Shown piece by piece: positions 11,503 through 14,231 of a DNA stretch of 64,000 nt. The stretch spans positions 1-64,000 of the forward strand of contig CACWNQ010000009.1 of NCBI GenBank assembly GCA_902762385.1. The letters are read 5' to 3'. The notes beneath the pieces were generated by a model, which saw only the letters and a program-made list of their open reading frames with translations, was not told the DNA's origin and searched no databases. Position 1 is the first letter of the stretch. Each line of letters starts with the position of its first letter. The DNA is from an uncultured Bacteroidales bacterium (GTDB taxonomy: Bacteria > Bacteroidota > Bacteroidia > Bacteroidales > Muribaculaceae). The position numbers and the translations under genes are program-made.

Positions 11503-11520
11503 TGTAACCAAAACGTAACA
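11503..11520 (+). promoter_or_regulatory. PHO-box-like direct repeat
   Basis: GTAAC occurs at 11504-11508 and 11515-11519, an 11-bp-phased direct repeat (TGTAACC, four bases, CGTAACA), the geometry of PhoB-type winged-helix sites. It lies about 33 bp upstream of the -7 box at 11552, where a good -33 element is missing, as in activator-dependent promoters. The regulator is inferred. Confidence 0.45.
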
Positions 11521-11588: not shown

Positions 11589-13547
11589 ATGACTATTGGC
11601 ATAATATTCCGGCTTCTCGGATCTCTGGCGTTGCTCATTTATGGAATGAAGACAATGAGCGAAGCGCTTCAAAAAATGGCAGGTTCCAGTTTACGTCACA
11701 TTCTAGGACGGATGACATCCAACCGCTTCAGTGGAATGCTGACAGGCACTTTTGTGACCTGTGCAGTGCAGTCATCTTCGGCCACTACGGTGATGACGGT
11801 ATCGTTTGTTTCGGCTGGACTATTGACGTTGTCACAGGCGATATCGGTCATAATGGGCGCCAACATTGGCACGACCCTCACTGCATGGATTATGTCATTG
11901 GGCTACAATGTAGACTTGACTAGTGTGGTCTTTCCTGCATTTCTCATCGGTATGGTTCTCATTTACAAGAAACGGCACCGATATGTGGGAGATTTCCTAT
12001 TTGGAATTGCATTTTTGTTTTGGTCATTAGTGATGTTAAGCAGTGTGGGCAAGGACTTAGATCTCGAACACAATGCTGAAGTTGTAGCATTCTTTGCCTC
12101 ATTCGACACCAACAATTATCTCACGATCCTCGCTTTTCTTGGAATTGGCACCATCATAACCTGTATTGTGCAGTCGTCGGCTGCAGTTATGGCCATCACC
12201 ATCCTGCTCTGCTCAACAGGAGTGGTCCCCATTTACATGGGAATTGCTCTAGTGATGGGTGAAAACATTGGCACCACCGCCACTGCCAATCTTGCAGCAC
12301 TTAAAGCAGGTGTGAGGGCACGACAGGCAGCATTTGCCCATCTGCTTTTCAATGTGTTTGGTGTGATTTGGGTGCTATTCGTGTTTTACCCATTTGTCGA
12401 TACGGTATGTAAGATGGCAGGCTATAACCCTTCTCTTTCGGGTCAAAATGAAAGTCTCCCCATCGTATTAGCTCTATTCCACACATGTTTCAATGTGATA
12501 AATACCGCGATTCTCATCAGTTTCATACCACAAATGGAGCAAATTGTAAGGTGGGTCATCAAGGATAAGCCAAAGGTCAAAACAGTTAAACGCCTTCAGT
12601 ATATTGACAACGGACTGATGGCTACACCAGAGATTTCAATACTTCAAGCGCAAAAAGAGATTGTGCTCTTTGCTGAACGCTTGCAGCGCATGTTTGGCAT
12701 GGTGTGCGTCCTACTCGACGAGAAAGACAAGAAAGAATTTGAACGTCAATACGAGCGCATTGTCAAGTACGAAGACATTGCCGACAATATGGAATTCGAA
12801 ATTGCTTCTTACCTGAAAGAAGTAAGCAACCAACATTTGTCGGACGACTCTAAAAGTAAAATTCGTAGCATGCTTCGTCAAATCAGCGAATTAGAGTCTA
12901 TAGGTGATGCTTGTTATACACTAGCCCGCGCCATCCAGCACAAGCACAATGGACGTGAGGATTTCACTGCCCAACAATATAACAATCTCCATGAAATGCT
13001 GCGCTTGGTGAACGAGGCATTGACTCAGATGATGGTCGTCATCAGTGGACGACGCGAGGATTTAACCATTGATATATCGCAAGAGATAGAACATGACATC
13101 AATGTGCTTAGAGACAAACTAAGGGCAGAAAGCTTAAACGACATCAACGAACATAAGTATTCTTACGCCCTTGGTTCTTACTATGAAGACATCATAACAA
13201 GATGCGAGGAACTTGGTGACTACGTGATGAACGTTATAGAAGCTCGACTTGGAAAGCACTTCCTCACATTCCGTGGCCTGCGAGTGAGTCTTGACCGCAA
13301 AACCGTCACCATCGACGGCACTCCAACAAACCTCACTCGAACCGAATTTAACCTACTATGCGAACTCATGTCTAATAGTGGTCAGGTATTATCACGACAA
13401 GAGCTCATGAACAGCATTTGGGACGGTGTTATCGTCACCGAGCGCACAGTGGATGTCAATATAACTCGACTGCGAAAGAAGCTAGGTCCTTATGCCCAAA
13501 ACATCGTCAACCGACAAGGCTTCGGATATGTTTTTGAAAAGAATTGA
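11589..13547 (+). CDS. Na/Pi cotransporter-PhoU protein fused to PhoB-type winged helix
   Basis: 652 aa in one uninterrupted frame. Residues 1-320 are a Na+/phosphate cotransporter (NptA/PNaS family) with the two inverted-repeat signatures QSSSATT (Q61) and QSSAAVM (Q195) and paired GANIGTT/GENIGTT motifs. Residues about 340-550 form a PhoU-like helical domain, normal in bacterial NptA proteins. Residues 557-652 are an extra OmpR/PhoB-type winged-helix DNA-binding domain: LTRTEFNLLCELMSNSGQVLSRQELMNSIW, recognition helix TERTVDVNITRLRKKLG and wing NRQGFGYVF, all complete. Known family members end after PhoU. The fusion suggests a membrane protein that imports phosphate, senses flux through PhoU and binds DNA itself, like ToxR/CadC one-component regulators (inference). 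A PHO-box-like repeat lies in its own promoter and a hairpin terminator follows. Confidence 0.9.
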   Translation: MTIGIIFRLLGSLALLIYGMKTMSEALQKMAGSSLRHILGRMTSNRFSGMLTGTFVTCAVQSSSATTVMTVSFVSAGLLTLSQAISVIMGANIGTTLTAWIMSLGYNVDLTSVVFPAFLIGMVLIYKKRHRYVGDFLFGIAFLFWSLVMLSSVGKDLDLEHNAEVVAFFASFDTNNYLTILAFLGIGTIITCIVQSSAAVMAITILLCSTGVVPIYMGIALVMGENIGTTATANLAALKAGVRARQAAFAHLLFNVFGVIWVLFVFYPFVDTVCKMAGYNPSLSGQNESLPIVLALFHTCFNVINTAILISFIPQMEQIVRWVIKDKPKVKTVKRLQYIDNGLMATPEISILQAQKEIVLFAERLQRMFGMVCVLLDEKDKKEFERQYERIVKYEDIADNMEFEIASYLKEVSNQHLSDDSKSKIRSMLRQISELESIGDACYTLARAIQHKHNGREDFTAQQYNNLHEMLRLVNEALTQMMVVISGRREDLTIDISQEIEHDINVLRDKLRAESLNDINEHKYSYALGSYYEDIITRCEELGDYVMNVIEARLGKHFLTFRGLRVSLDRKTVTIDGTPTNLTRTEFNLLCELMSNSGQVLSRQELMNSIWDGVIVTERTVDVNITRLRKKLGPYAQNIVNRQGFGYVFEKN

Positions 13548-13697: not shown

Positions 13698-13772
13698 TGG
13701 TAGCCCATAGCAGAGTCGAACTGCTCTTTCAAGAATGAAAATCTTGCGTCCTAACCGATAGACGAATGGGCC
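13698..13772 (-). tRNA. tRNA-Glu (UUC), CCA encoded
   Basis: On the minus strand a complete cloverleaf is visible: acceptor GGCCCAT/ATGGGCT, anticodon arm CAAGA-TTTTCAT-TCTTG with anticodon TTC, T-loop GTTCGACTC, discriminator A at 13701 and encoded CCA at 13700-13698. Its 72-nt body is identical to the copy at 14160-14231. It is the last gene of a tRNA-rpsT-tRNA unit. Confidence 0.93.
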
Positions 13773-14122: not shown

Positions 14123-14159
14123 AATTTATGTGTAAAAAATTTAATTGTTTGATTATTAG

Positions 14160-14231
14160 TAGCCCATAGCAGAGTCGAACTGCTCTTTCAAGAATGAAAA
14201 TCTTGCGTCCTAACCGATAGACGAATGGGCC
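14160..14231 (-). tRNA. tRNA-Glu (UUC), CCA not encoded
   Basis: Same 72-nt sequence as the tRNA at 13701-13772, anticodon TTC. After discriminator A (14160) the minus strand reads CTA instead of CCA, so the tail must be added by CCA-adding enzyme. First gene of the tRNA-rpsT-tRNA unit. Confidence 0.92.

Follow-up and report, generated by a model that had tools for sequence, protein, structure and literature searches.

How PhoU couples phosphate transport to PhoB has long been an open question. PhoU is needed for the dephosphorylation of PhoB in phosphate, and the accessible part of a review lists the component that senses phosphate scarcity as unknown (PMC4415409). The DNA-binding part of the protein described here is like PhoB (NF053854; B. 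fragilis PhoB, PMC3547664; E. coli 1gxq/1gxp) in its winged helix, fold and 11-bp direct-repeat site, but it has no receiver, no phosphorylation, and is joined to a transporter. For B. fragilis PhoB, the available portion of the report describes experimental evidence of binding to the pstC promoter (PMC3547664). The Na/Pi cotransporter-PhoU proteins (PF02690 and PF01895; TIGR00704) have the same transporter and PhoU over their full length, and the fusion adds a C-terminal PhoB winged helix to this arrangement. In CbrA, which we take to be a fusion of a transporter and a histidine kinase, a transporter is similarly joined to a signalling module, but there the output is a kinase, whereas here it is a DNA-binding domain.

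ToxR and CadC are built from an N-terminal winged helix, one membrane helix and a periplasmic domain. The fused protein has a different layout, with a C-terminal winged helix behind PhoU, a multi-spanning transporter as membrane part, and no periplasmic sensor domain seen. An earlier note on this DNA had likened it to ToxR and CadC; the analogy holds for the logic, since the accessible part of the literature describes these transmembrane one-component regulators as likewise having a DNA-binding and a membrane part in one chain (PMC10269533), but fails for the layout. Rsp of Neisseria gonorrhoeae is by analogy a precedent for such joining: it combines the membrane and DNA-binding parts of a former two-component system, but, in the portion of the source at hand, its membrane part derives from the kinase PilS rather than from a transporter, and it represses pilA (PMC10269533). 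Archaeal regulators of the PhoU family also tie PhoU to transcription control; within the available text the PhoU-like domain is itself counted as the DNA-binding domain and no transporter part is told of (PMC6316755). Our literature search, with subscription papers mostly outside its scope, returned no earlier report of a transporter fused to a PhoB-type DNA-binding domain.

The fused protein and its conservation

The window is a stretch of 64,000 nucleotides from an uncultured Bacteroidales bacterium (contig CACWNQ010000009.1). One of its genes encodes the fusion:

11589..13547, + strand: fused gene, Na/Pi cotransporter-PhoU-winged helix, 652 aa, a single uninterrupted frame
11589..12578, + strand: membrane transporter part, residues 1-330 (PF02690; QSS motifs at 61-63 and 195-197)
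12627..13250, + strand: PhoU domain of six helices, residues 347-554 (PF01895; AlphaFold helices; Foldseek to 1t72 and 2i0m)
13251..13259, + strand: three-residue junction from the last PhoU helix to the first winged-helix strand, residues 555-557
13260..13544, + strand: PhoB-type winged helix, residues 558-652 (PF00486; NF053854 positions 130-225; Foldseek to 1gxq/1gxp)
13440..13502, + strand: recognition helix, residues 618-638 (AlphaFold; R627 L628 R629 K630 K631 in 76/76 aligned proteins)

Pfam confirms the continuous frame proposed in the earlier note: the 652-aa protein contains Na_Pi_cotrans (E 1.6e-56, two stretches), PhoU (E 3.2e-08; two stretches at a loose threshold, one at 0.001) and Trans_reg_C (residues 577-649, E 1e-20), and all three domains occur in 27 of 27 scanned members. 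The note had also taken transporter and PhoU to be normally separate, which is incorrect, as unfused transporters carry PhoU too and only the winged helix is unusual. The winged helix, which it placed at 557-652, begins at about residue 558.

The protein exceeds the cut-off of TIGR00704 (226.1 versus 210.1 bits), and its transporter part matches SLC34 by sequence. In the features tested it belongs to the Na/Pi cotransporter-PhoU family, and sodium-coupled transport is predicted. The nearest model for the winged helix is that of Bacteroidota PhoB, NF053854, which is matched only from position 130 to 225 of 225, so the receiver is missing. Lacking the receiver with its phosphorylatable Asp, the fused protein is not a response regulator; it has an OmpR/PhoB winged helix with an intact recognition helix, in one chain with membrane segments.

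In the AlphaFold model the six PhoU helices extend to residue 554, and the winged helix opens with a strand at 558. A shorter model of PhoU and winged helix has the same boundaries at high confidence (pLDDT 90.5, pTM 0.69); confidence in the full-chain model is low (pLDDT 78.6, pTM only 0.46), such that the arrangement of the domains is not readable from it. At the top of the Foldseek ranking stands the PhoB effector domain of E. coli, both unbound and bound to pho box DNA (1gxq/1gxp), with the PhoU structures 1t72 and 2i0m at ranks 14 and 38 and no transporter structure among the best 50. From the biology of PhoU and SLC34, the winged helix is presumably on the cytoplasmic side.

To collect relatives, we searched named contigs using the last 182 residues of 11 fused proteins as queries and took the best 80 of 497 as loci. 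Each covers nearly the whole query at 57-96% identity. According to the record titles, many of these loci are from ruminants, and some bear no mark of metagenome assembly (Prevotella ruminicola KHT3, Prevotella sp. khp7, HUN156, MN60 and P6B1). The three domains share one frame in 78 of these best 80 loci, three of the 78 having a transporter truncated by the contig end; in L161 and L167 only the winged helix and part of PhoU are in frame. An alignment of 76 proteins, the window's and those of 75 loci, has a single length across the junction (residues 551-564) and retains both QSS motifs throughout. The ExxxD residues of PhoU, to which we attribute a role in metal binding, are kept in 75-76 of the 76, and the run R627-K631 in the recognition helix is identical in all, so no part looks decayed. 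Median dN/dS is 0.059 for the transporter, 0.069 for PhoU and 0.115 for the winged helix (200 pairs, dS 0.05-1.3). All three parts are under purifying selection, and the winged helix is the least constrained.

Just downstream of the fused gene, two tRNA-Glu genes (anticodon ttc in both) lie on the minus strand at 13698-13772 and 14159-14231, and the small gene between them presumably encodes ribosomal protein S20.

Origin and distribution

We examined 13 non-fused neighbourhoods, picked for the presence of a PhoB-like winged helix. In nine of them a transporter-PhoU gene, a PhoB-like regulator and a kinase follow one another on the same strand; three have a regulator-kinase pair without a transporter, and one is a different locus. 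A regulator gene adjoins 17 of the 31 unfused transporters that have readable upstream DNA. Most unfused transporters of the genus have their C-terminus at, or a few residues past, ...GDYVVNVVEARFG; in the fused proteins these residues are present and the winged helix follows directly. Relative to the transporter-phoB-phoR operon, the fusion is without receiver, linker and kinase. The likely source is thus such an operon, as found in congeners, with loss of the receiver and the kinase. The receiver would have been lost between the neighbouring transporter-PhoU and phoB genes, and after the fusion PhoR, and in most fused lineages PhoB too, would have disappeared.

The fusion most likely arose once. 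In the PhoU tree a single branch splits 74 fused from 32 unfused rows (SH-aLRT 100), and in the winged-helix tree a single branch splits 72 fused from 35 regulator rows (SH-aLRT 97); a mixture model recovers the same single splits with support of 100 and 89, respectively. With one change each, several independent fusions are not needed for PhoU or for the winged helix. The transporter tree requires three changes, of which at least two are forced by starred branches. Here the transporter half of eight loci (L101, L102, L103, L114, L117, L119, L128 and L164) groups with unfused proteins of another lineage, PhoU and winged helix of the same loci group with other fusions, and the placement of L169 is ambiguous. 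We read this as exchange of the transporter half, with PhoU and winged helix inherited as a unit, and this joint inheritance speaks for a shared function of the two. A possible but less simple history is that of separate fusions in which the remaining parts were exchanged later.

The distribution of the fusion is patchy. It occurs in at least 3 of 61 relatives, 7 of 101 genomes of the window's genus, 2 of 393 genomes sampled from the order and 1 of 395 sampled from the phylum, as well as in at least 4 of 18 genomes of the family of one further fused genome, G487; the best 80 of 497 relatives do not represent an occurrence rate. In the same family as G487, PhoB-like regulators of about 146-148 aa are found with most of the receiver gone (L087:1489-1929 in G885 and L092:1489-1935 in G890), and a short frame in a third genome (G891:C128:2539-2826) resembles them. 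The regulator in G885 adjoins an intact regulator and kinase. These receiver-poor proteins are possibly a second route to a PhoB without receiver.

Neither PhoR nor PhoB orthologues were found in the neighbourhoods, with flanks of up to 6 kb, of the 80 fused loci (best 80 of 497). Probes for kinase and receiver gave matches there only at 22-42% identity and in only four of these loci; kinase matches of 41-100% identity were present in all 13 non-fused neighbourhoods and in none of the seven fused ones of the same set. Among 50 fused genomes examined (50 of the best 80 loci: L093-L133 and nine later ones), five have a separate full PhoB over the family cut-off. Many of the 45 scored as PhoB-less are metagenome assemblies, in which assembly gaps may explain some absences, and in one (G933, L130) a receiver alone is matched, at 198 bits, which may belong to a partial PhoB. 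No PhoB over the family cut-off was found in the window's genome. Within the genus, PhoB is present in 2 of 7 fused (among the matches listed) versus 51 of 94 unfused genomes, a weak contrast; the count of 5 in 50 spans other taxa, so its contrast with the genus is partly taxonomic. Two genomes, G107 (L058, L059) and G011 (L053, L065), have the fusion and in addition an intact PhoB with kinase, and in G011 this pair stands without a transporter. The window's genome has a second, unfused Na/Pi transporter-PhoU gene (G000:C25:25064-26758, L002), 55% identical to the fused one, with neither the promoter repeat described below nor an adjacent phoB.

The promoter repeat

A direct repeat with an 11-bp period (TGTAACCRAATTGTAACC), first seen on aligning the upstream DNA of fused genes, precedes the gene in the window:

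11503..11519, + strand: Pho-box-like direct repeat TGTAAC-N5-CGTAAC, predicted site of the gene's own winged helix
11552..11559, + strand: TACTTTTG, Bacteroidota -7 type element TAnnTTTG, 49 bp from the repeat start

We take TAnnTTTG to be the -7 promoter motif of Bacteroidota. The repeat in the window is an exact match to the consensus. Absent from the earlier note, it is the strongest functional evidence obtained. TGTAAC-N5-TGTAAC occurs with at most two mismatches in 71 of 74 fused upstream regions versus 5 of 222 first-order Markov sequences, and with at most one mismatch in 58 of the 74. Nearly all of these repeats (69/71) precede the script-assigned start by 60-72 nt, those of L135 and L147 by about 250. 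At two mismatches no repeat was found in three of the 74 promoters: L139, which has one with three mismatches, and L119 and L164, which belong to the group with exchanged transporters. TAnnTTTG follows at 49 or 50 bp from the repeat start in 64 cases among 72 fused regions, and anywhere downstream in 65 of the 72 versus 18 of 360 controls, with a T-run between repeat and element. According to the available part of a review, the Pho box consists of two direct repeats with a period of 11 nt (PMC4415409), and the same arrangement, upstream of promoter elements, is found here.

The repeat is also present at 16 of 17 unfused transporters with an adjacent phoB-type regulator versus 2 of 14 without (Fisher p 7.6e-6), and in the 16 operon promoters its distance to TAnnTTTG is 39, 49-50 or 61 bp, in steps of about one helical turn. 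Such helical phasing of a repeat upstream of promoter elements suggests activation. Directly after the first TGTAAC, 58 of 60 non-redundant fused promoters carry a C, versus 1 of 16 operon promoters. It thus seems that the fused proteins use a box variant of their own, by which they could be kept apart from PhoB where the two coexist. The repeat persists in genomes that lack PhoB. Some other factor must therefore preserve it there, most obviously the fused winged helix.

The fused gene itself makes up essentially all of the predicted regulon. In the window's genome the only exact match to the core is in the gene's own promoter, and 16 core sites are found at up to one mismatch versus 51 for the backward pattern. 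One of the single-mismatch sites (G000:C6:11088) is located towards the end of a 515-aa frame; the neighbouring gene we take to be electron-transfer-flavoprotein-like, and no phosphate gene is evident there. A longer pattern gave 26 sites in 14 fused genomes, 13 at the fused gene and 13 elsewhere, versus 17 for the backward pattern; of the nine sites with no or one mismatch, the fused gene accounts for eight. Thirteen of the 14 genomes have a site there, the exception being Prevotella ruminicola KHT3 with a promoter site that is too weak. A wider regulon was sought in the window's genome and in these 14 and none was found, other sites being at background level.

A candidate one-component phosphate switch

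Architecture, conservation, constraint, the repeat with its position and the scarcity of PhoB were computed; from them we infer that the winged helix binds DNA, while held at the membrane, in response to a signal and as an activator rather than a repressor. The one-component switch suggested in the earlier note gains support from the lack of PhoR and PhoB orthologues near the fused genes, the 5 in 50 genomes with PhoB, and the presence of a Pho-box-like repeat in the promoter of the fused gene. We consider it probable that the protein is a self-regulating transporter and thereby a one-component phosphate switch, its DNA-binding domain acting at the promoter of its own gene under the control of PhoU. 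The membrane part would act as a Na/Pi symporter, and PhoU, about three residues from the winged helix, would read transport or cytoplasmic phosphate and take over the receiver's role as gate. When phosphate is plentiful, PhoU would hold the winged helix off productive binding. Under scarcity, the winged helices of two fused molecules would occupy the 11-bp direct repeat as a head-to-tail pair, immediately upstream of the fused gene's own promoter, and transcription of this gene would rise.

With somewhat less assurance, we lean towards a further step, a transporter serving as its own transcription factor, in which the state of transport would pass through PhoU, along one chain with a short joint, to the PhoB DNA-binding domain on the protein's own promoter and replace the entire PhoR-PhoB relay. 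If true, PhoU can act directly on a PhoB effector domain. Candidate signals are flux, cytoplasmic phosphate, or metal-phosphate on PhoU, between which the sequence does not discriminate.

It is possible, though unlikely, that the winged helix acts at its own promoter without phosphate gating, either constitutively or by plain repression to a fixed transporter level. Without its receiver, the effector domain of PhoB is capable of constitutive DNA binding, according to the accessible part of the review (PMC4415409), and sensing is not evident from sequence alone. However, PhoU is retained with its ExxxD residues and stayed with the winged helix while the transporter part was swapped; the repeat, like an activator site, sits upstream of the promoter elements with a constant spacing in phase with the DNA helix.

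Release of the winged helix by proteolysis or from an internal start, with the membrane part controlling only the release of a soluble regulator, appears improbable. Membrane-bound regulators of other kinds commonly release their regulator part, which counts for this explanation, as does Met547 just before the winged helix; but while 67 of the 76 aligned proteins have Met at position 547, the other 9 have Ile. Moreover, the junction of about three residues has no disordered linker in the models and one length in all 76, and so short a junction speaks against a freely swinging or cleaved-off winged helix.

There is very little to recommend the idea that another OmpR-family regulator reads the repeat, with the fused winged helix serving as a scaffold or persisting as a decayed remnant. 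Further OmpR-type regulators do exist, e.g. G000:C6:96970 (184 bits to the PhoB model), but the conserved recognition helix (76/76) and the winged-helix dN/dS of 0.115 contradict decay, and the repeat persists in genomes without PhoB over the cut-off and is mostly missing (present in 2/14) at unfused transporters without adjacent phoB. Finally, an assembly join or accidental read-through of two adjoining genes, which the earlier note had proposed as a test together with sporadic, frameshifted fusions, can be rejected with near certainty: transporter and phoB do adjoin in congeners, but the frame is intact in 78 of the best 80 of 497 loci, the junction is identical in 76 of 76 proteins from many assemblies and, by record title, several isolates, and the winged helix is under purifying selection.

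In conclusion, a rumen-bacterial transporter probably controls its own production without a separate relay of sensor and regulator. With transporter, PhoU and PhoB effector in one chain and without a kinase, a single protein, read out through a single promoter, suffices for studying the coupling. Both states occur in one genus and illustrate the reduction of a two-component operon to a one-component switch.
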